In this document: in pieces, positions 3,029-40,108 of the stretch | Layout of the letters: each line of letters starts with the position of its first letter | Numbering within the stretch: position 1 is the stretch's first letter | DNA from: Adineta ricciae | Taxonomy: Eukaryota > Rotifera > Eurotatoria > Adinetida > Adinetidae | NCBI GenBank assembly: GCA_905250025.1 | Contig: CAJNOJ010000305.1 | Location: 48,745-112,744, forward strand | DNA length: 64,000 nt | Direction of reading: 5' to 3' | Program-made: the position numbers and the translations under genes | Notes under the pieces: generated by a model | What the model saw: the letters and a program-made list of their open reading frames with translations, nothing else | Told to the model about the DNA's origin: nothing | The model's database searches: none

Positions 3029-3060
3029 AGTTGAATAGAAGTCCGTGGAAATACTGCAGG

Positions 3061-3740: not shown

Positions 3741-6700
3741 ATGACATTATTGAATGAAAATGACCTTTTACATGGAAGATGTGAAAATTTGCCAGATGTT
3801 CGGTCGAAGATCGTTCGCGTTTTCATTAGTTCAACATTTTCAGACACGCTGAGTGAACGAGATTCGTTAATCGACACCGTTTTCCCTCGACTCAAAGACT
3901 ATTGTCGTGAAAAATATGGTCTTGAATTTCAAGTACGTTCGAATTCATTGATTTGTTTGCTTTCACGTTAGGAATTCTCGGTTAAAGTATTCAGATATGC
4001 GATGGGGAATTGAAGGTGAAGCCGCTGACAATCACAGTGAAGTAGGAACCTGTTTGAAAGAAATCGACCTGTGTAAAAAATATTCCGTCGCGACGAATTT
4101 TGTGGTTTGTTGTATTTTTGACAGTATTAAAAGGAAGATTTTTCTTTGAACAGGTTTTACTAAGTCATCGTTATGGTTCCCGACCGACACCTGCGAAGAT
4201 CGACTCATCGCTATTCGAACGCTTACGAGACATTGTTCAATCGGATCCAAATCTCATCGAAGATCTCGAATTGCTTTCTCAATGGTATCAATTAGATACA
4301 AATTCCATTCCATCATCTTATATTCTTCGTTCGATTTCCTCATTATTACCGAATATCAAATCTAACGTAAGAGAAGATGTCGTTCTAATGGATTCATTTT
4401 CTCTCTGTTCTTTTACAGAATACGACTGAAATGAAAGAAGCAGGAAAACAGTGGAATCGGATCAATGATCGCATTCGCACGTGTTTGAGACAAGCAGCAG
4501 AAAGGTGCTTTCAACAGAATCAAATTACTTCGGATGAATATGACGACTTTTTTGTCTCAGGTAAAAAAATATTTTCTTTCTTTAAATGTGTTTTTTAATT
4601 GCTTAGCTACCGTGCAATAGAATATTTTCTCTTCTTATTCGTCACGATATGCCGGTTACAATGTTTTGTCGTTTATTTTAGTTACTGAGAAAGAAATCAT
4701 CAAGGGAATACTACAGGCACCAGATGCTAATCAACGAACGTTGTGTTTTTTGAGGGAAATCGATGGAATTGGTGAGCATTTATCGGATAAAAAAGCGTCG
4801 AAGTATATCGATACGAAGTTGACAAAAGACGGAACTGTTGTGATCGATAAAGAAGCAGAAGATTTGTTGAATCGATTGAAGTTTACACGAATTCCGAAGG
4901 CATTAGATTCAAAGAACGTGTTTTCCTACAAAGTTCCTTGGACATCCAATGGAATCACTCGAGACGCTCATCAGGAGTATATCAAGAAATTTCATGAAGA
5001 TTTCTTCACTTCGATCAAACAGCAAATCGATACGTGTTTGCAATCTTCTTTGATCACAAGTCTGAATTTATTACAACGTGAAATTCTCGAACATGCTATT
5101 CAATGTCAAACGTATGTGAAGAAGTTTCACAGTCGTACGGATACTTTAGAAAAAGTAAATGCTTTGTGTTCGATGACATATTCGAAAAAGAAAAGAATCT
5201 ATGATTTTAGCTGGAAAAATACGTGAACAATGAAGAAGAACATCGACCGTGTATTGTTTACGGTCCATCAGGTTGTGGGAAAACGAGTGTAATGGCAAAA
5301 ACTGCTACCGAAGTAAAACCTCAGATGTGAATTTTCATATACAAATTTTCCTGTTTAGATATTCAAATGGTGGTCAAATCGATCTGTATCCGTAATCCTA
5401 CGCTTTCTCGGGTATTCTTTATCATATATGATTTTCTCATAGTAAAATTCCGTTTTCTCTTCTATAGAACTACCCGCACGTCGTCAACCATTTACAAAGT
5501 ATTTTTATCTATTTCGGAACAAATTTGTCAATTGTACAATTTAACGATGCAAATGTATACCGATGTTTCTCAATTACGAAATCAACTTGAAAATGATCTG
5601 TTGCCATACATTCCTCCAAATCAGTATCTTCTTCTTCTGCTTGATTCCATTGATCAGCTTGAAACAGATTCTTATGATTGTAATTGGTTATTACCGAGGT
5701 TCCCCAAGAATGTCAAATGTATTGTGTCAACATTACCTGACCATGGAAATATATTGTCCAATTTAAAATCTCTCATTAGCTTCAGTCCGGCTGCAGTAGA
5801 TGAAACTGAACATATTCTCGTTTTAGTTCCCCCATTCGATGTTTCAACAGTTGATTCGGTTTTCGAGAATTGGCTTCAAATGAGGAAACGCTCATTAACT
5901 GACGATCAACGATCGTTCATACATGAAGTCATTTCTGGAAGTTCAAACATGTTACCATTGTACGTGAAACTTATCTTTGATATCATTTCCACATGGCATT
6001 CGTACGATCCAATCGATCAAGAACTGATAAAATTGAAAAATGTCGATGATTGTATCAGATATCTGTTTCGATATTTGAGTAAAATACACAATACAATACT
6101 GTTTCATCATGCAATAATTTATATGACATCATGTCGAAACGGTATCAGTCAAAATGAACTTGAAGATATTCTCTCACTTGACGACGATGTTTTGAAAAGT
6201 GTTTTTCAACATTATATTCCGCCCGTTCGTCGTATTCCTGGTATTTTATGGACAAGAATTCGAAATGATTTGGATGAATATATTACTGAGAAAGAAGTAG
6301 ATGACTCGCCTGTTATTTACTGGTAAGATTGGCATATTCAACGGGAAAACGTTTGTGATAGTTGACGTTTAGGTATCATCGTCGATTCATTGAAGTTGCC
6401 AATTCTGAATACATTTCGAAACTGAGTAGCGATCAACGAAAAGATATATTTCAAAATGTAGTTGACTTCTACAAAGAAACATGGAAGAACAAGAATAAAC
6501 CAATAAAAATCAACAATCCGCATTTAGTCAGCAAATATCAATTGAATGACACGAATGGTGAAATTCAAGCGAATCGATTGACAACTTCTCAACCAATCGA
6601 ATTCATTGATGCCAATGGTCGAACGCAGTTTAATAAAAGGAAGCTAAATGAATTACCACAATTTGTTAATCAACTAACGTCTAGCTTGGCTCTCCCGATT

Positions 6701-9700
6701 GCTGCTGATGAAATATTTTTCAATTATTCATTCATGCGTAAGTAATATACATGATAAAAATTCGAAAGAGAGNCGAATGGTGAAATTCAAGCGAATCGAT
6801 TGACAACTTCTCAACCAATCGAATTCATTGATGCCAATGGTCGAACGCAGTTTAATAAAAGGAAGCTAAATGAATTACCACAATTTGTTAATCAGCTAAC
6901 GGCTAGCTTGGCTCTCCCGATTGCTGCTGATGAAATATTTTTCAATTATTCATTCATGCGTAAGTAACATTTCAGTTTCCTCTTCGAATACTAAATAAAC
7001 TGGACATATTTGCGAGAATGACTGTAAACTTTGTTCACTTTCAGGTGGCAAAATTGCCTGTTCAACATTCAACGATATACTCGATGAAGCACAAAACTTA
7101 AAACAAACATCTTCATATAATCTTTCGGAATATGTATTGGGAATCAAGAAAGAACTTGACATATTTTCCATGCTGTACTTACTCATCGGTGGCCTGCTGC
7201 AAGAATATCCAGAAAATTTCCCCTTTGAATATTCAGCACGTCTTTTGACCTTATATGGAATCAAACCATGTATAACATCATTGATAAAACAGTTCGACAA
7301 AGAAAGTATTCATCATTGTGCATTAATCGTTCCTTATTGTCAAATTCAACCGCCTGGAAATGGTTTACTGTTTTCCACCATTCGTCATTCATCACCAATT
7401 GTTGATTTTGACTTCACTGATGACCAAATCAATGCAATTACTCTTTCGAATCGAATTGTTGTTATCAATATGTCAACTGTTAAAACAGTTTTAGATATCA
7501 AACTACCAGATATAGATGAGCCGTATTTAAACGCAACAACATTAGCAAAAATATATCATTTAAATGAGAAGAATGATGTCATTGAACATTCATCGGACAA
7601 TGCAGAAGATGAATATAAACAGTATCTATTTCTTATTAATTCTCGTCATCACGTTTATTTGATTTCAACACAAGAAACGATCAAATATCAGCGTTCGTCA
7701 ACTAATGGTTTCTTAGTTACGAAAGTTCTTGATAAGAAACGATCTCTTTGTACAATAGCAGAAATCAATGGTACTTCCATTGAATGTTATGATCTTGCTC
7801 GAAACCGTTTATTTACAAAGATTGACTTTCCAAAATCGATTCTCAAACAAGTTTTGTGTGTTCCTATGTATTCCATGATCGTTACCTTGTTAAACGACGG
7901 AACTATTCATATTCATTCGATTACCGATTGGGCAAAGACATCATTCGTTCACCGAGGTACAATTCATGCGGGAAAGCATCTTCATCAAGTTACTCATGAT
8001 AGTGGAAAGTTAATTTGTACATTTGATGAGACGATTCCAATCGATTTGTCAATTATTCCACTAAAGCAATTTCATCAGGATGAAAAAGTGTTAATTGACG
8101 ATCAAGTCGTGAAGACATTGATTAGTTTTAGTCCTCCGATCGAACCGAAACCATTCAAAAGAATAATTCTATCTGATAAAGAAATAATGAACAACGGAAG
8201 TTCAAAGGAATATTTTTCATCGTTTATAATCGAAACCAATGATTCAATCTACGTTGTTCACAAATGCGGCGCCTCTCGTTTATCATACATGCGTATTCCT
8301 GGTCAGTTCGATCTTATCACAATGCATCTTACAAATGATCGATGTATTCTTACTGCTCGTGGTGGTATTATTGAGATTTATCAGTATAAATGCGTTGCAA
8401 ATGACGAAACTGGTGAATTCAATCACGAATATCAGTTATTCGTATCGATTGATACCGGTTCTTCGGCAGCCACTGCGATCAAGCCTTCGTCTGACAACGG
8501 TAAACTCGTCTTGCTCCGCTTACGACTAACTATTTGATTGATATCTGTGTATTTTCTAGCATCGATATTTCTCTGTTCATTCGAAAACGGCGTCATTCAA
8601 GCATATTATGCAAAACACGCGCGGGAGTCTTTTAAAACAATGCCAACGTTTCCACGTGCACANCGAATGGTGAAATTCAAGCGAATCGATTGACAACTTC
8701 TCAACCAATCGAATTCATTGATGCCAATGGTCGAACGCAGTTTAATAAAAGGAAGCTAAATGAATTACCACAATTTGTTAATCAACTAACGTCTAGCTTG
8801 GCTCTCCCGATTGCTGCTGATGAAATATTTTTCAATTATTCATTCATGCGTAAGTAATATACATGATAAAAATTCGAAAGAGAGCAATATTTTGGCATAT
8901 TTTGAATGACTGTAAACTTTGTTTACTTTCAGGTGGCAAAATAGCCTGTTCAACATTCAACGATATACTCGATGAAGCACAAAACTTGAAACAAACATCT
9001 TCATATAATCTTTCTGATTATGTACTGGGAATCAAGAAAGAATTGGACATATTTTCCATGCTATACTTACTCATCGGTGGCCTGCTGCAAGAATATCCAG
9101 AAAATTTCCCCTTTGAATACTCAGCACGTCTTTTGACCTTATATGGAATCAAACCATGTATAACATCATTGATAAAACAATTCGACAAAGAAAGTATTCA
9201 CCATTGTGCATTAATCGTTCCCTACTGTCAAATCCAACCGCCTGGAAATGGTTTACTGTTTTCCACCATTCGCCATTCATCACCAATTGTTGATTTTGAC
9301 TTCACTGATGATCAAATCAATGCAATTACTCTTTCGAATCGAATTGTTGTTATCAATATGCAAACTGTTAAAACAGTTTTAGATATCAAACTACCAGTTA
9401 TAGATGAGCCGTATTTAAACGCAACAACATTAGCAAAAATATATCACTTAAATGAGAAGAATGATGTCATTGAACATTCATCAGACAACACAGAAGATGA
9501 ATATAAACAGTATCTATTTCTTATTAATTCTCGTCATCACGTTTATTTGATTTCAACACAAGAAACGATCAAATATCAGCGTTCGTCAACTAATGGTTTC
9601 TTAGTTACAGAAGTTCTTGATAAGAAACGATCTCTTTGTATAATAGCAGAAATCAATGGAACTTCCATTGAATGTTATGATCTTGCTCGAAACCGTTTAT

Positions 9701-12419
9701 TTACAAAGATTGACTTTCCAAAATCGATCCTCAAACAAGTTTTGTGTGTTCCGATGTATTCCATGATCGTTACCTTGTTAAAAGACGGAACTATTCATAT
9801 TCATTCGGTTACCGATTGGGCAACGACATCATTCGTTCACCGAGGTACAATTCATGCAGGAGAGCATCTCCATCAAGTTACTCATGATAATGGAAAGTTA
9901 ATTTGTACATTTGATGAAACGATTCCAATCGATTTGTCAATTATTCCACTAAAGCAATTTCATCAGGATGAAAAAGTGTTAGTTGACGATCAAGTCGTGA
10001 AGACATTGATTAGTTTTAGTCCTCCGATCGAACCGAAACCATTCAAACGAATAATTCTATCTGATAAGGAAATAATGAACAACGGAAGTGCAAAGAAATA
10101 TTTTTCATCGTTTATAATCGAAACCAATGATTCAATCTACGTTGTTCACAAATGCGGCGCCTCTCGTTTGTCATACATGCGTATTCCTGGTCAATTCGAT
10201 CTTATCACAATGCATCTTACAAATGATCGATGTATTTTTACTGCTCGTGGTGGTATTATTGAGATTTACCAGTATAAGTGCGTTGCAAATGACGAAACTG
10301 GTGAATTCAATCACGAATATCAGCTATTTGTATCGATTGATACCGGTTCTTCGGCAGCCACTGCGATCAAGCCTTCGTCTGACAACGGTAAACTCGTCTT
10401 GCTCCGCTTACGACTAACTATTTGATTGATATCTGTGTATTTTCTAGCATCGATATTTCTCTGTTCATTCGAAAACGGCGTCATTCAAGCATATTATGCA
10501 AAACACGCGCGGGAGTCTTTTAAAACAATGCCAACGTTTCCACGTGCACANGTATCGATTGATACCGGTTCTTCGGCAGCCACTGCGATCAAGCCTTCGT
10601 CTGACAACGGTAAACTCGTCTTGCTCCGCTTACGACTAACTATTTGATTGATATCTGTGTATTTTCTAGCATCGATATTTCTCTGTTCATTCGAAAACGG
10701 CGTCATTCAAGCATATTATGCAAAACACGCGCGGGAGTCTTTTAAAACAATGCCAACGTTTCCACGTGCACATCAGCATATCAAAGTACTTCAACTGTAT
10801 GGAAATCGAGCGTTTACATTAGACGACTCTCGACGGTAAATTCGAACTTTAGAAAACTGAATTTCATTTTTAATTTTCAGCGAATTAACCACATGGGCAT
10901 ATCAACACTCTGCAGCGATAGTCTCGACACATTTATTTAATGAAAACATCCTCATTGAACATTTCGCCGTTTTGCCGAATAATGCTAATAAGGACATCCC
11001 GTATGTGATCGTCTTTACAAAGAGCCATTGGATTCAAATTTATTCCTGTGAATCATTGGATAAAAAACCGATATTCAAACAAAATCTTCGGACACTTGCA
11101 CGAGTTCACACGACAGCTCATGGGAATATTTATGTTTTGACCAAGAATTCGTTGATTTATTCATTTGGTCAACGAACTCTCTCGAATAATTCCAATGAAT
11201 TTTATCAAATCAATCAGATCCAGTTAGAAATTCAATCGTCAATGATGTTCAGTTCAATATGTCGAATCAAAGGAAATGAAAGTTTAGTCATCTTCTCTGA
11301 CGATATGAAATCCTTGGTTATCTACACAACCGAGAATACAATTGATATGAAGATCGATATTTCATCATACATTTCCTCACCATCAACAAAAGTACAATTA
11401 CTCGAAAGTGAACAAACCGAGAATTGCCTATTCTTCTATTTCAATGATCAAACTCTCCTCTCATGTCAAATCAATCTTCAACAAAATCCATTTCAATTTC
11501 ACTCCTTTTTAAATGTCAATAAATTTGCTCTGAAAAACTCTTCTTTGGCATTATATTCCCATGATAAACTACAAGTAAATGTTTACAAGAATTCATTCGA
11601 AAAACAATTTCAAGCAATCAAATTGGATAATCAATGTGAACATTTATGTTTCAATGCAACAGGAGAATATTTGTTCGTGTTAATCAAACCAAGAATACTT
11701 TCTATGTATCGAACAAAGGATAATCGACAAATGGCGAAGTTATTTGTTTATGATTTTGTTACATCAATGAACGCGGATGAAGAATTTGTCGTTTTGGCTA
11801 TGAAAGATCGACGATTGTTGACTTTAATGATTGCGGATCCCCATGATTCGACTTTACACAATCGAATACAACAACTTCCGAGCAGGTAAGAGCCAAAGCT
11901 TCGTTTCATTCCGTCGTGTGTAAGTCAATCTGATTTTATAGGAATATCGAATCGACTAACCAATCTGATGTTAATAAACTCGTCGAATATTTGAACAAAT
12001 GCGCTGATTTCGGTTCGAGTGATGAAGAAAAAGACGATGAAGAGTCAGATTGGAAAGAACGATCTATCGCACCAATCAGCTCGTTTCGTTTTGTCACTCG
12101 ATTGATTGGTCGTTGTTCACATTCAAAAATGAAGAATGACGAGGAAATCCGATCGAAAATAATTTCTATATTCGAAAATACAGAAGAAACCATCGATCTA
12201 ACCCAAGTAGAGAACGATTCGGATGATGATGACGTTGTATCAACACATATCGAACCACAGCAAGCAACAGTCAACACGAACCTGGATGATATTCGTCAGA
12301 AGACATCAGAATACGATCAAAATCAAATCAAAGGCGTCCAATTCGCAAATGCTGGAAGTGCAAATCTGAAAGTTATCAACAATCATTCTGTCACATCAGA
12401 GACATGCGTTATTGTCTAA
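3741..12419 (+). CDS. NACHT/WD-repeat protein, NWD1/NWD2-like (DUF4062-NACHT-beta propeller), interrupted by assembly duplications
   Basis: A many-exon gene. Exon 1 (ATG 3741) carries a DUF4062-type start: VRVFISSTFSDTLSERD then EKYGLEFQ, continuing into DMRWG-like sequence in exon 2 (near 3990). The exon 1/2 junction is uncertain by a few bases. Later exons give VLLSHRYGSRP (4155 on), a Walker A GPSGCGKTS in the 5210-5311 exon, an RFLGTT motif formed across the next intron, Walker B LLLLLDSIDQL near 5625, and the NWD-typical RIPGILWTRIRNDL and DDSPVIYW near 6235-6323. Exons after 7045 encode a long beta-strand-rich region consistent with WD-type propellers. The last exon (11941-12419) is acidic and low-complexity and ends in CVIV. 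The family are STAND NTPases thought to act as signalling scaffolds. Positions 6774-8662 and 8664-10550 are two versions of the same exons, so the printed order is not one transcript. Confidence 0.82.
6552..6772. repeat. 221-base end overlap, repeated after the next two N joints
   Basis: These 221 bases recur exactly at 8664-8884 and, with substitutions and a different intron start, at 6774 onward. The exact match shows that the sequence before N6773 really continues into the 8664 block, and that the 6774-8662 block is the alternative allele. Confidence 0.85.
6774..8662 (+). repeat. Alternative allele of the NWD-like middle exons (bubble branch 1)
   Basis: Contains the end of one exon, an intron (about 6960-7044), the long exon from 7045 to about 8499, a short intron, and the start of the next exon (…SFENGVIQAYY). 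It differs from 8664-10550 by scattered substitutions and by a diverged intron, with no frame-breaking change seen. It is flanked by N at 6773 and 8663. Best read as one allele of a heterozygous segment placed in series by the assembler, not as a third set of propeller repeats. Confidence 0.8.
8664..10550 (+). repeat. NWD-like middle exons, branch continuous with 1-6772
   Basis: Same exon content as 6774-8662. Its first 221 bases equal the last 221 before N6773, and its last 221 bases (10330-10550) equal 10552-10772. This is the branch that joins both flanks without conflict. The coding frame is open throughout, with substitutions relative to the other branch such as Ser to Gln and Asp to Val in the early propeller region. 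Confidence 0.82.
10552..10772. repeat. 221-base start overlap of the downstream contig
   Basis: Identical to 10330-10550. It covers the end of the long propeller exon, a 60-odd-base intron and the start of the next exon. The apparent premature end ...LRLRLTI seen in each copy is simply read-through into that intron; splicing from SSDN to ASIFLCSFENG restores the frame. Confidence 0.85.
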
Positions 12420-14205: not shown

Positions 14206-17200
14206 TCAAATCGATGTTTCTTCTTCTATAGTTGAAAGTGTTCGTTTCGGTGGGGGTTTTGCATTGACATAAACAAAGCGTTGAATAACTGGCTTACGCC
14301 GTTTTGCTCGCCGTTCTTTTCGTATTCGTTCGCGCTCTCGTCGTACGGGATCAATGCCGAAAAAGTATCTGAGAAAGTCCATAATAATAACGAACAATAT
14401 AACGCTGATCATTGCTAGAATTGCAATGAAAGCGAACGACGTCGCGACAACTCGATATATATAAAGTTTTGTTGTAATTTTTTCGCAATGTTCACCACCG
14501 GTTCCAAAGAGACACTCACATTTATAAGCACCTAACAGTGGACGACAAACGCCTCGATTGTAACAGGTGATATTCCAGCAATAATTTATTTTTCGTTCAC
14601 ATCTCGTTCCTTCGTAACCATATGAACATGTGCAATCATATGTAGAATTTGTTATCGGACGACAAGTACCTAAACAGAGACATTTTCGCAGAGTTTAATA
14701 ATGAGAAAAACAGAATTTACCGTAGAGACAAGTATTTAATTTACAAGGACTTCGACTGAATTGACATTGTTTGTCAAAGAAATCAATGTGACATGAACAA
14801 TTGTAATCGTGCCCGTTGTTCAGATCAATGCAGTTGCTATTGTTCGGACACGGCTTTTGCATAGCACAAACTGTTCCGGATATATTACAATTTTGACCAA
14901 TATTTGTTGTAGTACCACAGGAGTCAACAACAATAAACATTGATGTTGAATTATCTATACAGTAGACCTTTATTATAATGTAAGGCGAAATCTGTACGCA
15001 TACCTCGATATTTAGATAAAGATGAAGTTAAATATGGTTTTTCTGTTGTTCTCAATTGATCTAAGTAGTTCGAATTCGAAACCACTTTGGAATGTAAAAA
15101 CACTTACCGCATGTATTCATTTTTGAACGAAATATTTGAACGCGAAAGTTCCATTCATCAGCAACATACAAGTTTCCAACACTGTCAAAATAAACAGTAT
15201 GTGGATGATAAAGTTGATTAGAAGATGATCCCGATGTATTCGTATTGCAACCAGCTATGTACTCAAACTCGCCATTTCCCACTCGGACTATACAATGCTG
15301 TAGGCTATCCGCAATGTACAAAAAACCATTTCCATCACCCGTCACACCAGTGGGATATTGAAGTGTTAAACCTTCTGGAATGTTCGATCCAGCCACTGTG
15401 TCCCCGTTCAAGTCTCCACGTCGAAATAACTGAACTCTGTTGTTCCCACCATCAGCCACATATAAATGATAATTGAGATCAACAAATATTCCCATAGGTT
15501 GATCAAGTTCATATGACCCCGATCCTGCTTTGCCTGTTCCTGCTATGTATCTCTCCGTGTGATTATCACTGGTTAGTAATACTTTCACTACTAAGTGATT
15601 TTCGTGACGAGAACAATAGAGGGTGTTGCGAATGTCAACAAAGAGACCAAAGCAGTGTGCAGACAGTCTTGTAATAAGTTTACTTTCGGTAGAACTTGAT
15701 GTAAACTTCCGAATTTCACCTGTTTTTTCACCATTCTCGAAATAGATATCGCCATTCAATGTCACAAATAAAGGCGTAAACTCGTACAAACTAGCGTTTA
15801 ACTGTCGTAGTTGGTCAACACTCTGATTAGACCAAATGAGAATTCGGTTCTTCATATGGTCGGCTACGTAGAGGGTATCGTTCAAATCGACGAAAATGCC
15901 GCGAACTTTTGAAGTAAGAGTTTTGTTATCAACAAAAGTGACACCACATTTACTCCATGTTGTGTTCGACAAGAACTTCGGTTGATTGAATGAAACTAAA
16001 TACAGAAAAGTGTGCCTGAGTGCAACAACGTTTTCTCTTTCTCTTTCTCTAGTGTCTATCGCATTCATCAAATTATGATGATAATAGTATAATTTCGTAC
16101 TCACCAGGATAGTTGAGAATTTGAAATTGTTGCACTCGGTTATTTGCCCACTCACTCACATACAGTGAACCAAAACTATCGAATGCTAACGAATGCGGTT
16201 CGCGTAACTGAGTTGGTTTATTTCCCGCTGTTGCTGAACATGCAACGATACATACTCCAGAGATTGAACCAGGTTTCCAACGAGTGATGCGCGAGTTGCC
16301 TAGTTCACTAATGTAAAGCAACTCATTTTCATCAACAATCACATCTGTTGGTGACTTCACTTGCGTCAGACTGTTTCCAGCTGTTCCATCACCAGCCACA
16401 CGAATTCCAACTGATGCTCCAGATGTCCATTTCATCACTCGATGATTCTCACGGTCTGCAATATAGATCGTTCCCACATCAGTGACGAATATCCCGTGCG
16501 GCCGAGCCAGTTGTTCATTGGCAGATCCTCGAGTTCCATTTCCAGCCACTCTTAAGCTCTCTGATGAACTCGATCGGAAAACAAACACACTGTGAATAGC
16601 TCTGTCGCTGACGTATATGTCGCCATGATTGTCAATGTAAAAATAGAGCGGATCTTTCAATCCAGTTAAATTACGTGTTATAGTTGACTTTGATCCGTTC
16701 AGCGGCATTTTCTCTATGCGACGGTTTCCTCGGTCGAGAACGTAGAGAGATGAGTTGAAAATGAAAACATCAGTTGGATCTCGAAACTGACCGAGATCTG
16801 AGGCGCGTATGGAATCGATAGTAGAAGTATTCATTGAAGAATGAAGATGAACTAGAACAATTCGACTATTATTTCCGTCGGCGACATATAGAATATCGTT
16901 GTCTGTAATTAATATCCCAATAGGCTTATTAAGTTGAAAAGATAACGATCCTGGTATTGCGTCTGGGGAACCTGCAACTGTAGTACCATTTTGACTCCAT
17001 ATTGAATGAGATGATAGTTTAATTTGCACTAGAAAGATAAAATATATGCTTAATGTATTTAGTGAGTTAGAATATGGACAGCTAATCGTTAATCAGATAA
17101 TATTCAAATGAAATATGTTGCCGAAGCTAAAAGTTTTGAATAATTACTTGATACGGCAGTGCTTAGTATTACCAGAACAAAGCATTTCATGAAACAGTAT

Positions 17201-17211
17201 CTACTTGTCAT
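14206..17211 (-). CDS. NHL-repeat / EGF / single-pass membrane protein (haplotype A)
   Basis: Six exons on the minus strand: 17211-17148, 17028-16105, 15995-15108, 15060-15004, 14954-14721 and 14669-14206. Exon 1 (64 nt) encodes a signal peptide (MTSRYCFMKCFVLVILSTAVS). Exons 2 and 3 encode roughly a dozen NHL-type repeats with the recurring pattern P-x-G-I-x-V/D...LYVADxxNNRV. Exons 5 and 6 carry EGF-like Cys patterns (NCNISGTVC…CPNNS…CSCHI; CTCSYGYEGTRCE; CRPLLGAYKCECLFGTGGEHC). Then comes one hydrophobic helix (FAFIAILAMISVILFVIIM) and a short Arg/Lys-rich cytoplasmic tail with PPPKRTLS. The predicted topology is type I with an NHL propeller and EGF repeats outside. Ligand unknown. Exons 2-3 are shared, inverted, with the neighbouring gene. 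Confidence 0.85.
15108..17028 (-). repeat. Left arm of an inverted duplication (NHL exons)
   Basis: The reverse complement aligns with 19239-21150 at very high identity, including the intron between the two NHL exons (both have the gtgagtacgaaattat start; this arm has one extra agaaag unit). Homology begins at the acceptor of exon 2 and ends at the donor of exon 3; the flanking introns do not match. Confidence 0.88.
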
Positions 17212-18522
17212 CTGATGAACTTTGAAGCTTTTTTCTAAATGGAAACTAAAGAATAAATATATTTCACTTGAATAATGTGTTTTCTCTCTCTTTCAGCTTA
17301 TTATTCAATATTTAGAGTATTTGAACGAACCAACTGATAGCATCACAAAGATTTGCGATTTATCCGTGCATTTCGATATCCTATACTTAATTGCTTTATA
17401 TTATATGTAAACTGGATTGAATTGATCATAATATTAACTAAGAGAGGAAGATCTAATTAATCTCAATGAGTAGAATGTATTTTTCAGAGAAAAAAAGTAC
17501 ATCATGTCAAATAACGACTGACGTCAATTGGACACACATTTGTTTCACTCTTTTTTTTATCACGTACATCTCATTTGACACGCTTGATCAATGTTTGTCA
17601 ATTGATACAGCGAGAGAAAGATTTTATTTATTAAAATGTCATGTCTTTTTTACATGAGCTTTTACAAAAATTCTCATCCAGAGAGATTACGTGATATTCA
17701 CAATAACTATATATTCGAAAATCTTACTTCCGTTAGTGATAGTACTGGACCATAGATAAGAAATTCGCTTAGAAATGCTACGTTTACAGCTGCAAGATGT
17801 CTTCAAATATAGATTCGACATATTTCAACGGGAGTTGATTTTGATTGCAAATTGACTTTGTCTATGAAGCACGTTCGATTCACAGTGAAGTTTCATCATC
17901 ATTGTACGTCTATCTTCAACTGTAAACGCTAAGAGTTTTTTCTGTATGAACATATATTATTTAGCTGTGAACGATATCTATACATATGGTGATTGTTATC
18001 GAAAATGAACACTTTATTTCTTTCATCAACATTTCACTGTAACAATACCATACGAATCATTTGATTCTATCCACCAACTTTATTTACAGGATATAGCTGT
18101 GACGTTAAAGTCGTTTGACTGCATTACACGTGTTCGTCGATAGTTGACAGAAAATAGCAACTGTAAATGAATACCCGATGACGTGAATCCCATTTTCTCC
18201 ATAGAAATCGTATTTTTCAAGTGATAACAGTCTTCCATCGACTGTTGTCTGACTCTCATCACGAGTTTGATGACGGTAATTGTCCCAGGGTATCAATGTA
18301 AAGCAAATAGACAAATATTATCCGTTATTGATCAACGAAAACTATCAATTCAAGGAGAAACACGTTCTGTTTTCTGATTGTCGCCACTGTAGGCGATATT
18401 TTGTTTTAACTAATATTTCTACCGACGTCATTTCTCAAAACAAAGCACGGATAATATTAATTACGACTGTTCACATCAAACTGTCTTTCTCGACCATATT
18501 CAACGGTTAATTTCAAAACGAA
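17212..18522. other. Divergent intergenic spacer of the NHL gene pair
   Basis: About 1.3 kb between the signal-peptide exons of two head-to-head genes. It probably contains both promoters. It is not itself palindromic. Short open frames here (for example 17466-17657 plus, 18105-18314 minus) have no recognisable features. Confidence 0.55.
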
Positions 18523-21500
18523 ATGAAATCATATTATTATTTATTTCTATATTCCATTATCCTGTTCATCGATGTTGAGTCTTCAAGTAACTATCGACAT
18601 TTTTTTTCTGTTTCGTATATACTATAGCCAGCATATCAGTAAAGATAAACTATCAAATAAACCTATTTTCTATACCTTTGCATTTACTTCATGTAAGAAT
18701 GGATTCTTAGACATGACTGGTTTTCATAAAGAATATTTACACCCTTCGCCCACTTTCTTTCCTGCGACAAAAAAAGTTTCTTAATACTATTTCTTGAGGA
18801 ATATGGACAACGACGCATTCGTTTACTTGATCTTCAATTACGCTTGATATTACAACCAAACATATCTTTGTCCATAGCAATTGTTAACGGTGCGGTTTTC
18901 GTTCGTATGAGAGGAAAGATCATCCCATCAGACATGAATTCTTGAGATTTTCTCTCAGATTATGCGGTTGAATGTTGAGTTGATTCTCGTCTCATTTGAA
19001 CATATCACTAAAACTGTATTCTTCCCTATATGTTTTCATTTCAATGAATGAATGTGTGACAAATTTATCTTCACTTGAATTCATCTGGATTTCGATACTG
19101 AAAATAAATGGAAGATTTTGTCAGAAGTTTTTCTCCCATTTTGGTATATAGTTCTCTCACCAGTCCTTATTAAACTGTACTAATAGCTTTTTTAAAACAC
19201 AAATCAATGTTTGTCTAAAAATCTTTCTTTGTTCAAAGTGAAAGTTAGACTATCATCTCATTCAATATGGAGTCAAAATGGTACTACAGTTGCAGGTTCC
19301 CCAGACGCAATACCAGGATCGTTACCTTTTCAACTTAATCAGCCTATTGGAATATCAATTACACACAACGATATTCTTTATATCGCCGAGGAGGGTAATA
19401 GTCGAATTGTTATAGTTCATCTTCATTCTTCAATGAATACTTCGACTACCGCTTCCATACGCGCCTCAGATCTCGGTCACTTTCGAGATCCAACTGATGT
19501 TTTCATTTTTAACTCATCTCTCTACGTTCTCGACCGAGGAAACCGTCGCATAGAGAAAATGTCGCTGAACGGATCAAATTCAACTATAAAACGTAATTTA
19601 ACTGGTTTGAATGTCCCGCTCTATTTTTACATTGACAATCATGGCGACATACACGTCAGCGACAGAGGTACTCACAGTGTGTTTGTTTTCCGATCGAGTT
19701 CATCAGAGAGCTTAAGAGTGGCTGGAAATGGAGCCCGAGGATCTGCCAATGACCAACTGGCTCGGCCGTACGGGATATTCGTCACTGATGTGGGAACGAT
19801 CTATATTGCAGATCGTGAGAATCATCGAGTGATGAAATGGACATCTGGAGCATCAGTTGGAATTCGTGTGGCTGGTGATGGAACAGCTGGAAACAGTCTG
19901 ACGCAAGTGAATTCGCCAACAGATGTGATTGTTGATGAAAATGAGTTGCTTTACATTAGTGAACTAGGCAACTCGCGCATCACTCGTTGGACACCTGGTT
20001 CAATCTCTGGAGTATGTATCGTTGCATGTTCAGCAACAGCGGGAAATAAACCAACTCAGTTACACGAACCGCATTCGTTAGCATTCGATAGTTTTGGTTC
20101 ACTGTATGTCAGCGACTGGAAAAATAACCGAGTGCAACAATTTCAAATTCTCAACTATCCTGGTGAGTACGAAATTATACTATTATCATCATAATTTGAT
20201 GAATGCGATAGACACTAGAGAAAGAGAAAACGTTGTTGCACTCAGGCACACTTTTCTGTATTTAGTTTCATTCAATCAGCCGAAGTTCTTGTCGAACACA
20301 ACATGGAGTGAATGTGGTGTCACTTTTGTTGATAACAAAACTCTTACTTCAAAAGTTCGCGGCGTTTTCGTCGATTTGAACGATACTCTTTACGTAGCCG
20401 ACCATATGAAGAGCCGAATTCTGATTTGGTCTAATCAGAGTGTTGACCAAGCACGACAGTTAAACGCTAGTTTGTACGAGTTTACGCCTTTATTTGTGAC
20501 ATTGAATGGCGATATCTATTTCGAGAATGGTGAAAAAACAGGTGAAATTCGGAAGTTTACATCAAGTTCTACCGAAAGTAAACTTATTACAAGACTGTCT
20601 GCACACTGCTTTGGTCTCTTTGTTGACATTCGCAACACCCTCTATTGTTCTCGTCACGAAAATCACTTAGTAGTGAAAGTATTACTAACCAGTGATAATC
20701 ACACGGAGATACACATAGCAGGAACAGGCAAAGCAGGATCGGGGTCATATGAACTTGATCAACCTATGGGAATATTTATTGATCTCAATTATCATTTATA
20801 TGTGGCTGATGGTAGAAACAACAGAGTTCAGTTATTTCGACGTGGAGACTTGAATGGGGACACAGTGGCTGGATCGAACATTCCAGAAGGTTTAACACTT
20901 CAATATCCAACTGGTGTGACGGGTGATGGAAATGGTTTTTTGTACATTGCGGATAGCCTACAGCATTGTATAGTCCGAGTGGGGAATGGCGAGTTTGAAT
21001 ACATAGCTGGTTGCAGTATGAGACGTGGATCATCATCGAATCAACTTTATCATCCACATACTGTTTATTTTGACAATGTTGGGAACTTGTATGTTGCTGA
21101 TGAATGGAACTTTCGCGTTCAGATATTTCGCTTAGAAATGAGTACATGTGGTAGGTAGAAGTAGTAGGAACAAATAGAGGAGAATTCTCGGAATGTCTTT
21201 TAAAGGTTGTTATCCTCCCATTATCAAAATAATCCCATCTGGAACTGTACTAAGAGTCCGACGTAATCAATATTTTTACATAAGCTCCGAAATTGAACTT
21301 CGATGTAATCTGTCTGAATCATTCTCAGCACAATGGTCAATTTTGAATTGTGCATCACCATGTTTCGATGAAACAATTGATATGTACAAGAATAATCTGT
21401 ACATTCCATCCCAAACTCTTCCGTATGGGATCTATCAATTCGAATTAATAGTGAAGATGACGAATTTTCACGAAATAAAATCTTCAGTATTCGTTGACGT

Positions 21501-24323
21501 CAAAATTATTGCCTCCAGTATCATAGCTCATCTTGTTTCGTATGATACACTAATCATTAAGCATCACTATGAAGAAAATCTTGTCCTGAATCCCGGCAAT
21601 TATTCTTACGACCAGAATTTAATCCATTTCAATCAACACGTATGTTTTCACAAAGAGCCTTTGTTTGATTTTTTTTCTCCTTTTTAGGACTGGCATTATG
21701 AATATTATTGTCGAATTTATTCAACGAACTCTCAACAATTCTCCACCTTTGAAGACTCAAACCAAACTTGTTTACTAGGTGAATGGACTTATAATAATGT
21801 AAATCGTACAGCTATAACAATCTTCAGTAAAGCATTCCAATTAAACCAAACATACCAGTTTATGGTTCAGATGACTCACCGAAAAAACTCTTCTCTCCAA
21901 TCTTTTGGTTATCTGATCGTGCAAGTTGGGAATCTTCAATCGCCCATTATTACCATCAAGTGAGTTTTACAATTAGCCTAAAACTCTTGATTCTCACGTA
22001 CCTTCTAGATGTCTCATCATAACAATGTGTTCATCAAAAGGCGAATTTCGCTACGTCAATCGTCATAGGCAAATATCACTTTCTTCATTCTGTACGAATA
22101 ACTGTTCACAAACAGTGAAAATTAGCTGGAATATCTACCAAGGAATGTTAGCTTCACCAAACGCAACTGTTCAATGGAATTCTGTTATTTCATTGCCGAC
22201 ATCATCATTTTTCGGTAAATCATCTTGGAAAATACGTGCCATTTCTGAAAATTTATGTCCATAGGATTAGATACGAAGGATCTACTTATAATGAGCGATA
22301 TTCTCACCGGTCAATATTGGCGTTTTGAAGTTCTTTATCAATTTGAATCCGAAACAATTCGAAGTACGTTCGATGTTGAACTGAACGATGGGCCGCGAAA
22401 TGGTTTTTGTCTGATTGATCCACCGAATGGAACAATCTTAACTTTATTCACAATTAATTGCTCGAACTGGTTCGATGCAGATGGAATTAAAGATTTCCTC
22501 ATTTACGGTAGATTTCTCATTTCTCGTCAATTAACAACAGACTTTCTTCTCTTCAGGTCTGATTGTAAACCTTCAAAAACGAATACTACTTACAACTTCA
22601 TCCAATCCAATAATTCTCCTTCGACTACCTGTGAATGTTCATTTAATTGTTCAAATTCGAGACACATTGGATTGTACTACTGAATATGATCTACCATCAA
22701 TCACAATCTATTCGAATTCTGCAATGATCGATACTTTGCTGATGCAAGAACACTCAAATGACGATCGATATATGATCCCGATGATATTATCAAGTAAGCA
22801 TTTCATCTAAAAGTCGATTTGGACTTTTGAGAAGAAAATTTAGTGACGAATAACTTCGATCTGAACACTTTAAATCGATATGCAACTATTCGAGAACAAA
22901 TCATGATGATTATCAACAAATTACCTTTAACCACACTGAATGAAATCAAATTTCAATCATCAATGCTTTCAATCCTCACTGAAACAACAAACCAACTAAC
23001 ACGAAGAACATCGGTAACTCTCACTCTGATTTTCATTCCTTTCAAATTCATTCTTCATAGATCATCGCACTGAATAAATGTTCCCAATTATCCTCCTTTC
23101 ACAAAGCCAATGTGAATAAATTCTCATATGAAGATACGCGTTTCATCTCAACAAATATTCTCGAATGTATCACTAACATTCACACGGTAAGCTGTTCCAC
23201 TGAAAATTCCGACGTTTCTACTTGAATTTAAGAGCATCAATGGACCATTACAACAACGTATGCAAGTTCTTCAAGCTGATCTACGAGAAGTCAATGATAT
23301 TACTCTTACAGGTAAACAATTCTCGATGAAAATCTAGTCAATTTGATATTTTAGAAGAACATAATCTTCATCATCGAAATTTTGAACATCAAAAACAAAT
23401 AGTAAGACTGATTTAACTTTGCCAAGCATCTTTAAGGAGCTTTTTCATAGGCCAATGAAATGACACATCAAATCAATGAAATTCTCTCGCTAATTACATC
23501 AGTCTTAGACATTCATTTGCATTTGACTCAAAATTTTACCATCAATACATCAACGATTTCATTTCTGTTGGCGAAAATCTCATCCTCATCTGTTCCCGAT
23601 AACTATCAAATTGATTATCCATCGAATTCAACTATGCTAATTCGTATGATGGTGCAACCATTAGCTTCATATGGAAATTCTGTACAATCGTATACGAACT
23701 CATCGCGACTACTGTCGCTTTCTATTCTCGACGAAAGTCAAAATGATATTCGAATAAATCGAATGGAATTCTTCATTCCTCGAGATCCAAACAAGTTAAT
23801 TCCACCGATGTTTTTCCAAAACGTGACAAAAATGAACCAGAACAAGCTATTGTTTCATTTCTATTCGTTTGACTTAACAAAATCAAATGAAAATCAAACA
23901 TTTTCCATTCATTTCGAAATCCATCCCTTGAATTCCAACATCTCCTATCTATTGATTTACCAATTCGATCACAAACCTCAAATACATTCAATTCAAAACT
24001 GGACATACCTATGTCCTTCCAATTCAACAGGTGATCAGACGTATCTTCACTTTATCGACAATTCTCAAACATCCGACCATCATTCAATCATTTACGGAAT
24101 TCGTGAATTAACATTCGAAGAAATGAACATCTATTGTTCCGACAAGAAATTCTATCAAAATCTCGATCAGCCAAGAAGATTTTTGTCGGATTATGAAATT
24201 CGACTTTATCAATCGAGTTGTTTGTATCTTGATTCGAATAATATTTGGAAATCGGACGGTTTCCTAGTTGGCCGTTCAACTACTCATAATCAAACACAAT
24301 GCTTTTCAATACATTTAACATGA
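18523..24323 (+). CDS. NHL-repeat / REJ / GPS-terminated protein (haplotype A)
   Basis: Inferred exon 1 at 18523-18586 (64 nt, signal peptide MKSYYYLFLYSIILFIDVESS) has the same length and phase as exon 1 of the inverted neighbour. NHL exons follow at 19239-20162 and 20266-21150, then 21206-21639, 21688-21959, about 22010-22217, 22265-22508 and several small exons to 24323. The REJ-type region shows the polycystin-like signature GFCLIDPPNGTILTLFTINC then W-F-D. The final ~80 residues resemble a GAIN/GPS end (paired Cys and Trp, then QCFSIHLT), and the stop codon follows Thr directly. In polycystin-1 relatives a GPS is followed by membrane helices; here none follow. Likely a secreted or processed ectodomain. 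The 652-nt first intron is the least certain part. Confidence 0.78.
19239..21150 (+). repeat. Right arm of the inverted duplication (NHL exons)
   Basis: Inverted partner of 15108-17028. Differences are scattered substitutions, for example NKPIGIL versus NQPIGIS and NTNTSGSSS versus SMRRGSSS. The arms are separated by about 2.2 kb. Confidence 0.88.
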
Positions 24324-25342
24324 AATCTTCAAGGATTTTACCTTTTCTTTCTACTTTGACGAGTTATATATAATCATATTCTTTTTGTGACATGACTTTT
24401 CAATCTTGTGAGCTAATGCATTCACAATCCACTTATAGTCTTATCGAAATAAATTTACACACTTTAACCTCGTTTCCCTATTTTTTTAATAGAACGAAAT
24501 ATTGTCATGCTTAATATTGACAACGTGATTCTATATCTTTATTTTCTAAAAAATAGTATTGTATCGATCATTTCTTGAGTAGCAAAGACGAAAAGAAAGT
24601 GACGTTTTCGGTACAAATAGAAATATTCTGGTTTTTTCCTCAGAATAAATAATCATGTAAACGCTATAGTACAAAACAAATTTGCTTGTGAATATTAAAA
24701 TGACATCATCTTGTCAAAGGTTTTCTCAGGGCTTACTTTTCTGTTTAAAATAGTAGATTGCATTAATTATGCTATTTGAATGAGACGAATAGAATCAGGA
24801 GTAGAAATAAAATATCATGGATTTAACCACCGTGTCGTTTGTTGTCGTCAGAAGAAGAAGAAGAAGAAGTAAAAAAAGGGTAACAGGAAATGATGAATAA
24901 AAGCTTTAGTTTATTTTTAGTTGAAATAAACTTAGAGCAATTGTGTATCTAATAGAGAATGTTCGAATTTGTCGGATGTATGAACATCGTTTCGTGATGT
25001 GAGAGAGACGTATTTCTAGACGGTGGAAACGAGGTATGACGGCATGGCTATCGTTCTTTCGTTTTCGTTCCATTATGTCTCGTGACTTCTTCTTTCTCTT
25101 GTTGATTGAGGTATGGTATGCCAATAGTTCCTGTTAACCTCGATAGTGTTCTAATGCGCAGATGCATATATTTTCATATAAGATACAGTCAGATAGATAA
25201 TAACAGAACGCTCAGTTCAACTTCTGAGTTTGAAACGACAGCGGTCCTTGCGCATTTTTGGATTTCATTGTCCTTTTGTAGCATAGCAATTAAATAATAC
25301 TTGGCATCAAAGAATATTTAACAAACAAAGCACGAGTATCTC
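24324..25342. other. Intergenic with a short GAA repeat
   Basis: AT-rich spacer. AATAAA signals occur near 24449. A (GAA)n run lies at about 24852-24869; the B allele has a shorter run near 45066-45077. Open frames such as 24906-25124 (minus) look spurious. Confidence 0.55.
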
Positions 25343-26430
25343 ATGTTGTCGTGGGCAGTCGTGACGAAAATGGTCATACTCTATGCTGGTAGTGCTGTAC
25401 TCTTTTCCAGTTTATTCGGTTGTCTAATGAATGTGATCATATTTTCAAGCTTTCATATGTATCGTTCTCAGCCATGTACATTTTATCTACTCATCGCAGC
25501 GCTCACTCGATTTACGCATCTTTTGATGATAGGTATTCCTCGTGGCATTGCCATTCTCTTTAACGTCGACTTGACACTTATTTCACTCGAATGGTGTAAA
25601 ATGAGATTTTACATTGTGAGTACTTGTTTTGGTTTGGAGATGACCTTCGAATGCTTGGCAACAATTGATCGATTTTTGATAACATCCCGAAAGGTCTACG
25701 TACGACAATTGAGTAATATCAAGATGGCTCATCGTGTTACTGCTGGTTTGATTGCTGTTTGGCTACTTCAGAATATACCATATCTGATCTTCGTTAATAT
25801 AAGGTACGATTTTGGATTTTTGTTGAATCGATGAGAGTACGGAATTGAAGTTCATGTATTTTCCGTTATTTTATTCATTTAGTTCGAACATCTGTGCGAT
25901 TTACAATGACTTTTGGCAACTTTATTCTACTTATGTGAATAGATGGGTTTTATATACGGCAGTTCCTTTGATTGTTTGCATCGTGTTCGGTATTCTTGCA
26001 CATAGAAATATGCGCAGTTTGAAACGTTCCCGTCAATTACAGAAAGCGGATCGTCAACTCTTCTACATGATCTTTGGGCAAATCATAGCCACTGTTCTTC
26101 CAGTTATACCAAGCGCTGTTTTCAATGTGTATTCACCTTCGGCGATTTCTGTAAACCAAGCTGCTGAAAGGGATAGTGATTATTTTGCCTTCAATCTTCT
26201 TAATGTTCTTTGTGTATTATGTTATGGAGTAAGTAAAGGAAATTCGTTATTTGATCGTTTTCTTATCGACTTTTCTTTATTTCTAGAGCACCTTCTTCAT
26301 CTTTATCATCGTTTCAAGTATCTTTCGTAGCCGATTTAAGCAGCGTTTTTCTTGTTGTAGCAGACACCGAAATCTCGTGACAACCGTTTCTGTGCGCAAA
26401 TTCGTTGCAGAAGCAAACCCTCATCATTAG
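25343..26430 (+). CDS. Seven-transmembrane receptor, class A-like GPCR (haplotype A)
   Basis: Three exons: 25343-25803, 25883-26228 and 26287-26430, giving about 316 residues. Seven hydrophobic segments are visible. The end of TM3 has TIDRFLIT in the place of the DRY motif. TM2-TM3 is preceded by a Cys (EWCKMRF), a candidate for the conserved disulfide with NICAIYND in the second extracellular loop. A basic third loop (NMRSLKRSRQLQKADRQ) precedes TM6 with a Pro (VLPVIPSA). TM7 is completed by exon 3 (STFFIFIIVSSIFRSRF), with a Cys-Cys pair just after it that could be palmitoylated. Bdelloids carry many such peptide-receptor-like GPCRs; the ligand is unknown. The N-terminus is short (about 10 residues before TM1). 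Confidence 0.83.
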
Positions 26431-31241: not shown

Positions 31242-32666
31242 ATGAAACAAACGTTTTTGCTTGGTAAACTTTTTTTAAATTTCACATTTGTGGGTTTATT
31301 TTTGCGGTTTATCATTAGCTATAGGATTGATTTTGGTATCGCCGACAATAAATCAAATACTTCTTACAAATGTTCCATTCGAATGTCGAAGCAAACAGGA
31401 TGGCTTCTGGCGTGATTTAAGATACTGTGATGTCATTCAGGTTTGTGTAGGCGGTGAACAGAAACGATCGTACGGGTGTCCTCAGGTTGGAGAACGATTT
31501 TATTTTGATGAACAGACTCAGAGGTAAGCACCAATGGTGATGATAAGTGGTTTGTTGTATGATATGTGTTTGGATAAAGATGTGAATTCGCCGCGAAAAA
31601 TACAGGCGGTTGTCAGTCGAATCAATATTACACTCCAATCACAAATGCTACTACACCTTCTGGAACACAACTGAGCACACCTGGTAAACTGGATTAGTTT
31701 TTATGATTAAGGAAATCTGTTATTTTCTTTTTGTAAAGCTCCTACTGAGCCATGGAAAATCTTCGCAAGATCGCAAGAGCAATTTAACTGTGCAGGTAAG
31801 GAGAATTTACCTTAACATAGACACATTTCGTTCTTTATCAACTCAGGTCGACAGGATGGATTCTATGCTAGCCGATGGTGTAACGTGTTCTATCGTTGTT
31901 ACAGTGGTGTCTCCAATGCTTTCCTCTGTCCATTACAGCCTGGTGGTGCACGTCTCTGGTGGGTTCAACATGGATCCTCTCAAGGTTTATTAGACGAATC
32001 AGTGGCAACGTGTGTTTATCCTTGTGACACGGGTAGACAATGTTCAAGTGCCGGAGGAATCATTGTAGAGAATGGAAATCAAATTAGTGAGAGTCAACAG
32101 GAAGCTGCAAATGTCTACAGGCAGTCTCCATGCTCTAATCGAACGAGTTCTGGCAGTGGAGCAGGACAATTCGGGTCTGGTCAAACTGGTTCAGGGCAGC
32201 TTGGTACTGGCCAGACAGGTACAGGACAAATTGGATCTGGTCAAACAGGAACTGGTCAGATAGGAGGAGGAAATCAAGGAAGTACAGGAGGTAAGAAACT
32301 TGATACTAATATTATTATGATGCAAGCAAAGTATCGATACTTTTCATTCTATTTGAAGGTACCTTCACTGTTGACTCGGACGTCAGTTGCGCTGGCAAAC
32401 CAGATGATACATATTTGTCCAGCCGTTATTGCAACGTTTTCCATCGATGCGTGTCAGGTGTTAGATTCGATCTCCGATGTCCTCGTGCCAACAACATTCC
32501 CTACGATTTATGGTGGAATCAACAAACTAATCTTTGCGATTGGCCGTGTCGCGTACAATGTACCGGACAGCTCTATGCATCGAGTACAGCGGCACAACAA
32601 GTATCCAGCGAAAGTTTAAAATTTTTCAATGGCGATTGTCGAGCTTACCCACTCATATTTGATTAA
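31242..32666 (+). CDS. Secreted chitin-binding protein with three CBM14 (peritrophin-A) domains (haplotype A)
   Basis: Exons: 31242-31263, 31319-31523, about 31582-31682, about 31739-31795, about 31848-32290, and a last exon ending at 32666. Exons 1-2 splice into a signal peptide (MKQTFLL-AIGLILVSPTINQ). Domain 1: FECRSKQDGFWRDLRYCDVIQVCVGG…YGCPQVGERFYFDEQTQRC. Domain 2: NCAGRQDGFYASRWCNVFYRCYSG…FLCP…CVYPCD. A low-complexity linker of Gly-Ser/Thr-Gly-Gln repeats follows, then domain 3: SCAGKPDDTYLSSRYCNVFHRCVSG…LRCP…CDWPCRVQC. Each has the six-Cys peritrophin spacing and central aromatics used for chitin. Likely part of a chitinous extracellular structure such as jaws, gut lining or eggshell; which one is not shown. 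Confidence 0.88.
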
Positions 32667-33277
32667 AATAAATAATGACATAATTCGATAAAAAAACTCT
32701 CGAAGAGCTTTTTCAACACATGCCATTCGACAGAAATAAGAACGTTTTGATATACTAACAAATTGTGAAATAACGACCCGAAAAATAATAATATCATCGC
32801 ATGTTATCTTTTGTTCGTATACCATTTACTATGCAGTCAGCATCCATACAATCGATTCCTAGCTTGCATCGCAATGAACATGTGTGTAAAAGATGATTAC
32901 GTTTTTTTCGTGAATCATTGTATCGTTCACAAGTCAAGTCACACTCGTCAGCATTATTTAAAGTGTGTGCAAATAGTCTTTGAAGAAATCATCACGATTG
33001 AAAGTTTTACCGTTCATAGATTTCAATTTAGTTGTGACCTACAACGTATAGAAACCGTGACAATATTTCTTGTGTTCTTTTTCTTTAGCTACGACACGTG
33101 CCCTACTTGGTAGCTATACGACTTCGTTTTGCGTGTGTTTTAATAAAAGTGTAATTCATAGAGAAAAAACGTCGCAGAACACTGTTTACGTCCTGAGATT
33201 GGGAAAAAAGAAAGTGGGTTTTTCTTTGCTAGTACATTTAATCAGTTTATATCGAAACAAAGCTACTTTATTTGTGA
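32667..33277. other. Intergenic, no gene recognised
   Basis: AT-rich, with poly(A) signal AATAAA near 32669. The open frames 32811-33113 and 33070-33327 are not conserved as frames in haplotype B. Confidence 0.5.
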
Positions 33278-34408: not shown

Positions 34409-34742
34409 GATCAGAAATCAACTGCAGTTAAAATTATCTACTTCTACTAACATCCCCCAGATGTCCTAAATAAATCAGAATTCATTTAGTTTATGAAATA
34501 TTTTGAGAATTACAATCATCAAAGCAAAATCATCATCTGCGTACATTTTTCAAAATATGATTTGAGACTTAACTGCCGACAAGACCGTGGACCACCCACG
34601 ATTGATGATTGGATGTTTTTTTTTGCTTCTTTGCGTACCGTCTCTATCAAGGTAAATATCAGTAGGACAAACGAACAGAAAAAGTGCGAAAAGGAAAAAA
34701 TAAAATAAATGGAGCGTCAACAGCAAACAATGACACGTCTAC

Positions 34743-34752
34743 TATATATAAA
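34743..34752 (+). promoter_or_regulatory. TATA box of the YbaY-like gene (haplotype A)
   Basis: TATATATAAA, about 130 bases before the ATG at 34882. Between them lie a putative 5' UTR and an intron that starts gtaaatgctacacg (near 34828) and ends cttttttag just before acgaaaATG. The identical element is kept in haplotype B at 55306-55315. Confidence 0.55.
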
Positions 34753-34881
34753 CCACGGCAAATCGAGTTGTGTTTCATAGCTCGACACACACAACACACA
34801 TCCAATTCAAGCCAAGAATCGCACACGTAAATGCTACACGTTCTTTTTTTACACAAAAACACAAATCTTTTTTAGACGAAA

Positions 34882-40088: not shown

Positions 40089-40108
40089 AAAATATAAATG
40101 AGTTCATT

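Follow-up and report, generated by a model that had tools for sequence, protein, structure and literature searches.

An NHL exon block shared by two linked genes with different ends evolves in concert at three loci of the rotifer Adineta ricciae

Two neighbouring genes of the bdelloid rotifer Adineta ricciae share nearly the same extracellular exons and end differently, which raises the question of whether these exons were recently copied from one gene to the other or belong to an old pair whose common part is kept alike. Both genes lie in a window of 64,000 nucleotides (contig CAJNOJ010000305.1, positions 48,745 to 112,744), referred to below as locus C305; positions are those of the window unless another contig is named. 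We call them gene E (the NHL-EGF-TM gene) and gene R (the NHL-REJ gene), and their models are our own spliced predictions from sequence, made without transcripts. The two-exon NHL block that they share evolves in concert at three loci of this genome, and the EGF and REJ ends do not. E and R very probably form an old linked pair in which the similarity of the NHL block reflects concerted evolution by recurrent gene conversion.

Self-comparison of the window revealed three consecutive inverted pairs, which together make up the arms 15102-17030 (minus strand) and 19237-21156 (plus strand). These arms are identical at 1842 of 1929 alignment positions and differ at 79 of 1912 aligned sites, with a longest exact match of 257 nt. 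Each holds an NHL1 exon, a short intron and an NHL2 exon, with an acceptor before and a donor after: 17028-16105, 16104-15996 and 15995-15108 in E (minus strand, donor GTAAGT), and 19239-20162, 20163-20265 and 20266-21150 in R (plus strand, donor GTAGGT). Between E and R, DNA identity reaches 95% for NHL1 and 96% for NHL2, and the internal introns agree at 103 of 103 aligned positions apart from a 6-nt indel. Beyond the block, the flanks are unalignable (66/157 past the acceptor, 80/162 past the donor). Each arm is preceded by its own signal-peptide exon of 64 nt in phase 1, at 17211-17148 in E (minus strand; translation MTSRYCFMKCFVLVILSTAVS, donor GTAATT) and at 18523-18586 in R (plus strand); an intergenic spacer (17212-18522) separates these divergent exons, whose starts are 1312 bp apart. 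The near-identity from acceptor to donor, internal intron included, and the separate signal exons of identical phase had been reported in a preliminary description of this DNA, and both are confirmed here. As in known gene-converted paired genes, E and R are linked, with near-identical extracellular exons and different ends.

We then looked for both genes elsewhere in the genome. Their exons belong to large expanded families, with at least 133 exon-level matches for NHL2, at least 126 for the REJ C-terminal exon and at least 148 for the EGF-TM exon (matches, not genes). Four linked pairs of E and R genes were identified, at C305, C358 (C483 being its likely allele), C183 and C338, and the first three of them are homogenised. 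The C358 and C483 arms are arranged head-to-head, and 1307 bp separate their signal exons. C183 carries both genes on one strand, in sequence free of Ns between the EGF exon (29733) and the end of R (31671-37275); past the E copy E183a, C183:25105-25901 can be aligned with the first part of R, and we take it for R's other allele (X183). In addition, NHL-EGF genes without a REJ match in the fetched stretches occur at C462, C12, C199 (two, probably alleles) and C105 (two), and an NHL-REJ gene without EGF at C193.

Between E and R, NHL exon identity at the three homogenised loci is 92-97% for pairs from the same haplotype or contig and 86-94% for pairs from different haplotypes of a locus, compared with about 55-68% between loci (short fragments of U2, the second copy of C305 in the window, aside). 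Besides the C305 values given above, E and R are 97% identical in the U2 fragments, 92 and 94% for E358-R358, 94% for E483-R483, 93% for E183a-X183, and 94% for E183b-R183, with 100% over a 171-nt fragment. Every locus receives 100/100 support as a group in the NHL1 tree, built on 17 rows, and in the NHL2 tree, for which 14 of 18 rows were used (without E183b, R193 and the two U2 fragments). Forcing the R copies or the E copies into one clade cost 530-1138 log units and was rejected in six of six approximately unbiased tests (p-AU ≤9.9e-5). The other parts of the genes match ordinary descent: the EGF tree (12 rows) joins alleles and places C305, C358/C483 and C462 together (95/94), and the REJ tree (6 rows) joins R305 and R358 (90/91). 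Synonymous divergence (dS) is 0.056-0.144 between E and R within a locus, 0.054-0.208 between alleles and 1.0-1.9 between loci, and reaches 1.5 between the EGF parts of E305 and E358. The signal exons of R305 and R358 share 39 of 64 nt and 11 of 21 aa (0 of 2000 shuffles as good), those of R305 and R183 share 7 of 21 aa (p=0.0085), and those of E358 and R358 are at chance level (18/64 nt, 1/21 aa). The block therefore follows the locus and the rest follows the gene type, which for the signal exons is clear only for R at C305 and C358; this pattern points to gene conversion, not recent duplication. These comparisons indicate an old, gene-specific origin for the EGF and REJ ends and, at two loci, for the R signal exon.

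The preliminary description had proposed domain shuffling by inversion, in which the exon block would recently have been copied in inverted orientation, with its edges in introns, and the NHL exons thereby joined to another C-terminus. Such an event would explain the near-identity of the arms, their splice-bounded edges and the internal intron identical over all aligned positions. However, the head-to-head pair already exists at C358/C483, where R has a related signal exon and the spacing matches, at a dS of about 1.0-1.5 from C305, and the NHL exons group by locus. Homogenisation is moreover found at three loci, once without inversion, so that the duplication would have to recur at each locus with the old ends kept each time, which is in effect conversion. 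We consider a recent inverted duplication very improbable, and since the same-strand pair at C183 is equally homogenised, inversion is unnecessary as a cause. Under the preferred reading, E and R would recurrently convert each other, in part at least in cis, and conversion would be confined to the block by the unalignable introns on both sides. Such a limit would make the block edges look like clean splice-site joints, and inverted-arm identity ending at splice sites is not usable as a date for exon shuffling. Ancient exon-bounded shuffling is possible as the first origin of the shared NHL block.

Then, we investigated whether E and R resemble each other more within than between haplotypes. 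Besides the C305 value, the internal introns of E and R agree at 97 of 100 positions at C358 and at 152 of 159 at C183 (E183b-R183), compared with 68/100 (C358/C483) and 133/159 (C183) between likely E alleles and 134/159 for E183a-R183, across haplotypes; the lone alleles at C199 share 51 of 53. Four-sequence comparisons covered 138 sites at C305, 839 at C358/C483 and 795 at C183. Sites at which E and R share the haplotype state number 5, 26 and 14, respectively, gene-type sites 1, 26 and 7, and crossed sites 1, 0 and 1. At C358/C483 the site types fall into 9 runs against an expectation of 27, a number as low as this being reached in 0 of 20000 shuffles. At C183, the crossed site omitted, 21 letters form 4 runs (reached in 32 of 20000 shuffles), and the gene-type sites lie close to the 5' edge; conversion is expected to leave tracts of this kind. 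The NHL2 tree joins E358 with R358 (100/99) and the NHL1 tree joins E183a with X183 (91/94). The introns and the sites at C305 and C183 suggest that partners are more alike within haplotypes, whereas the sites at C358/C483 are evenly divided; the phasing is uncertain at all loci. The internal introns suggest conversion within haplotypes, the other data being mixed.

The two equally long internal introns compared at C358 and C483 (C358:87675-87774 and C483:57679-57778) show, by eye, a short perfect hairpin in the C483 copy, perhaps a template-switch mutation; part of their difference may come from one clustered mutation. As for divergence between alleles, the spacer and the signal-to-block introns of C358/C483 are 95-97% identical and the NHL exons 91-93%, but the EGF exons and intron 3 of gene E (91% each) are as low as the NHL exons. 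At C183, block exons (93-96%) show no contrast with flanks (93-98%), and at C305 the values are 90-91% for the NHL2 tails, 94.7% for the REJ gene, 96.1% for the EGF exons and 86.9% for E intron 3. As low identity also occurs outside the block, an extra divergence of the block between haplotypes is weakly supported.

The structure of the scaffold bears on all these comparisons. The window contains seven single Ns, at 6773, 8663, 10551, 36639, 41252, 57176 and 59917. Between 11657-36608 and 36640-57175, identity is about 90-94% in the main segments; we read the first copy (U1, 11657-36638, plus strand) as one allele and the second (U2, 36640-57175, plus strand) as the other, and the N joins with their repeated ends suggest that scaffolding put the two alleles in tandem. 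In U2, gene E comprises the EGF side and an NHL2 tail running up to the N (40108-41251, minus strand), and gene R an NHL2 tail from the N followed by REJ exons (41253-44564, plus strand), both from sequence matches; the palindrome centre is absent and the single N at 41252 stands at exactly that point. Repeated ends of about 160-221 nt flank the Ns at 6773, 8663, 10551, 36639, 57176 and 59917 (6552-10772, 36442-36640 and 57011-62637), where the scaffolder seems to have joined contigs of nearly the same sequence one after the other. A further copy, 95% identical to 500-5500 of the window, lies 25 kb upstream on the same contig (C305:24220-29223). A deletion of the U2 palindrome centre was not accepted given the N there, nor was a true 25-kb tandem duplication, the copies meeting at single Ns with repeated ends; the repeats at the Ns were not accepted as long terminal repeats (LTRs).

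An assembly artefact, in which mis-joined allelic or paralogous short-read contigs produced the palindrome and its near-identity, would fit these single-N joins with near-identical tandem copies, the 257-nt limit on exact matches between the arms, the break of the U2 palindrome at an N, and the contigs C483 and C358 ending in NHL copies. Yet 10552-36638 is free of N and the palindrome is contiguous in the assembly; the arms differ at the sites counted above and their flanks are unalignable. The NHL2-to-REJ and NHL-to-EGF joins recur without N at other loci: at C358, an NHL2 piece is joined to REJ without N (81275-77439) and no N occurs from the R arm (82769) through gene E (89549). Finally, phase switching cannot create an E-R similarity that no copy has. 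An artefact is therefore highly unlikely to account for the pair.

We also examined what the two genes would encode. Gene E runs leftward as one open spliced model of 857 aa. Its NHL1 and NHL2 exons pass the Pfam cut-off (E = 1.2e-27 and 2.1e-14; 94.9 and 53.1 bits vs. 20) and are followed by a cysteine-rich exon (14721-14954, minus strand), which alone matched no Pfam family at E up to 5, and by an exon with EGF-like sequence, a membrane helix and a basic tail (14206-14669, minus strand). EGF in gene E stays under the Pfam cut-off (EGF_TEN, E = 1.6e-5, 25.1 bits vs. 65). Hydrophobic 19-residue windows start at residues 772-794, with hydropathy up to 3.15, and the basic tail comes after them. 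The NHL1 exon is predicted to fold as a six-bladed propeller: its AlphaFold2 model, of this exon only, has a low mean pLDDT (59.7) and a pTM of 0.68, and Foldseek matched this low-confidence model to NHL propellers, with Pizza6 as the best match and, among natural proteins, PknD, Thin and TRIM2.

Gene R runs rightward as one open spliced model of 1522 aa, up to 24323; no model was obtained under strict splice thresholds, this one resulting from looser ones. Its REJ side (21206-24323, plus strand) has ten exons, at 21206-21639, 21688-21959, 22009-22214, 22265-22507, 22557-22793, 22835-23013, 23061-23186, 23233-23311, 23355-23401 and 23451-24323, all ten equal in length in both C305 alleles; the REJ introns of the two copies are identical at 381 of 421 positions. 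The REJ domain passes the Pfam cut-off (E = 4.3e-8, 32.6 bits vs. 25, on 21199-21687), and a GPS at the end of R misses it (E = 0.12, 13.4 bits vs. 22.5). The frame terminates at a GPS-like TQCFSIHLT-stop with no membrane part after it in the model, and by eye a stop lies within a few codons of this point in the REJ frames of C358, C365 and C183 also. Hydropathy windows of 19 residues reaching at least 1.5 start only at residues 717-719 (maximum 1.64), in a crude scan that also misses R's own signal peptide.

Of the two C-termini announced in the preliminary description, EGF-like sequence, membrane helix and basic tail in E and the REJ region in R stand in open models, and the GPS is present as a trace only. 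E would thus be a single-pass membrane protein with a pair of NHL propellers and EGF-like repeats ahead of its helix and basic tail, and R would combine two NHL propellers with a REJ region and a degenerate GPS-like end, without a clear membrane helix. This agrees with the membrane-bound and the soluble or processed forms suggested earlier, the benefit of a shared propeller being inferred. The two propellers of each protein would be the putative binding part, on the membrane in E and without a clear anchor in R; more tentatively, keeping the block alike might let a membrane form and a probably secreted form retain the same ligand specificity, in the manner of paired receptors or of a receptor and its soluble partner.

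Several observations weigh against an old pair homogenised by recurrent conversion. At C358/C483 the site signal is mixed (26 haplotype-type vs. 26 gene-type sites), the NHL1 tree puts R358 with E483 and R483 and not with E358 (84/94), and identity between E358 and the piece R358b is no more than 86%, the lowest across-haplotype value. The assembly is probably a short-read one, in which phase switching could mimic a haplotype pattern; the grouping by locus is independent of phase and therefore unaffected. The C358 R arm is split from the REJ exons by two Ns (81276 and 82768) and the C483 contig ends inside R's arm, so that the REJ linkage there rests partly on scaffolding. Outside the pair, tblastx at 1e-10 revealed no collinearity when the flanks of the window, up to 36638 and with the pair masked, were compared with the retrieved stretches of C358/C483. 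Among the signal exons, E305-E358 likeness is weak (31/64 nt, p=0.0025, but 4/21 aa, p=0.14), R183 and E358 show a cross-type likeness (33/64 nt, p=0.0005, but 5/21 aa, p=0.19), and an E signal exon was looked for at C183 and none was found. The linked pair at C338, an NHL-REJ gene (minus strand) head-to-head with an NHL-EGF gene (plus strand) in C338:47258-63451, is not homogenised, its NHL2 blocks being identical at 510 of 859 positions (59%); a scaffold join between the two genes is possible there. Lastly, the E-R dN/dS at C305 NHL1 is 0.87, which may reflect relaxed constraint.

The last two points also fit neutral conversion, that is, homogenisation as a by-product of proximity and a high conversion rate with no shared function kept: blocks are homogenised at a distance of about 2-3 kb and not at C338, whose closest observed NHL exons lie about 9 kb from each other, so that proximity may set the conversion rate. 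On the other side, no stop interrupts the checked stretches of the E and R NHL exons at any of the three loci, the R model is open on the REJ side in both C305 alleles, and dN/dS between E and R is 0.28-0.62 in the other comparisons. Distance alone need not explain C338 either, since SIGLEC11 and SIGLEC16 convert at about 9 kb according to passages of a published study (PMC5701461). We regard neutral conversion as a serious possibility. A more specific idea is that this apparently asexual animal has a recognition system in which each haplotype carries an NHL recognition cassette of its own. A membrane receptor and its secreted counterpart would have this cassette in common in cis; conversion would keep their copies matched, and the cassettes of different haplotypes or loci could diverge, much as at plant S loci or allorecognition loci. 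This idea seems rather unlikely to us.

The closest analogues would be SIGLEC11/SIGLEC16 and Brassica SRK/SLG, the function of E and R being inferred. SIGLEC11 and SIGLEC16 are described as head-to-head and about 9 kb apart in humans, their extracellular exons showing conversion in all primates studied (PMC5701461). They resemble E and R in being linked head-to-head, with extracellular exons repeatedly homogenised and differing ends, and possibly in the relaxed constraint on converted exons (same study). They differ as Ig-type lectins with inhibitory vs. activating signalling, whereas E and R carry NHL propellers, have one partner without a clear helix and occur at three loci. For SRK and SLG, plant S-domain proteins acting in self-incompatibility, concerted evolution within S haplotypes is reported (PMC3310759); for E and R no ligand gene or part in self-recognition is known, no search aimed at a ligand gene having been made. 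In Adineta vaga, NHL is listed among expanded families suggested to serve in defence, signalling and the like, in passages that describe neither linked pairs nor NHL gene conversion (PMC3846280). By titles and abstract openings, the literature yielded no rotifer pairs of this kind, and nothing was found that combines NHL with a REJ domain or rotifer paralogous receptors with concerted evolution. The polycystin/REJ proteins form a family with a REJ domain and GPS features. Gene R shares with them its REJ domain and GPS-like tail and differs, in our model, by its N-terminal NHL propellers and by a frame that ends at the GPS-like motif with no membrane part. With three replicate cases in one genome, conversion appears to match one extracellular block across differing genes, and C338 provides an unhomogenised contrast in the same genome. 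This bears on the role of gene conversion in a bdelloid lineage thought to lack ordinary sex, and offers, beyond vertebrates and plants, a testable case for pairs of a receptor and its partner.

A few further observations concern the other loci. A REJ piece between the two Ns of gene R (C358:81276-82768) is 95% identical to 77819-79281 and is probably a scaffolding product. After an N at 92040, C358:92041-94307 holds an EGF fragment and an NHL1 copy, X358, in which the contig ends and which was left without assignment to E or R. The R copy of C483 has a frame shift near the contig end (61380-61394), due to a sequencing or assembly error or to a broken copy. A stop interrupts E199b, a lone copy of NHL2, at codon 54 of 295, and the in-frame stops in the EGF stretches of U2, C358 and C483 sit before the exon start or at the tail end. 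At C209:141995-154758, a short REJ DNA match and an EGF-TM match are separated by about 12 kb and may mark a fifth linked pair.

Finally, no Rfam family reached its gathering score within the window. For A. ricciae, passages of a genome study give a G+C content of 35.6%, a mean KS of 0.135 for homologs and 1.267 for ohnologs, and tandem homologous blocks on scaffold ARIC00305 (PMC5916493). The mean G+C content of the window (about 36% over 32 bins), its allelic dS and the dS between loci fit the values in these passages (PMC5916493). At 25322-26330, two hydrophobic frames resemble, by eye, a seven-helix receptor, the first of them without a Pfam match at 0.001. The G+C content is 0.42-0.44 at 58001-64000, compared with 0.33-0.41 elsewhere in the window.

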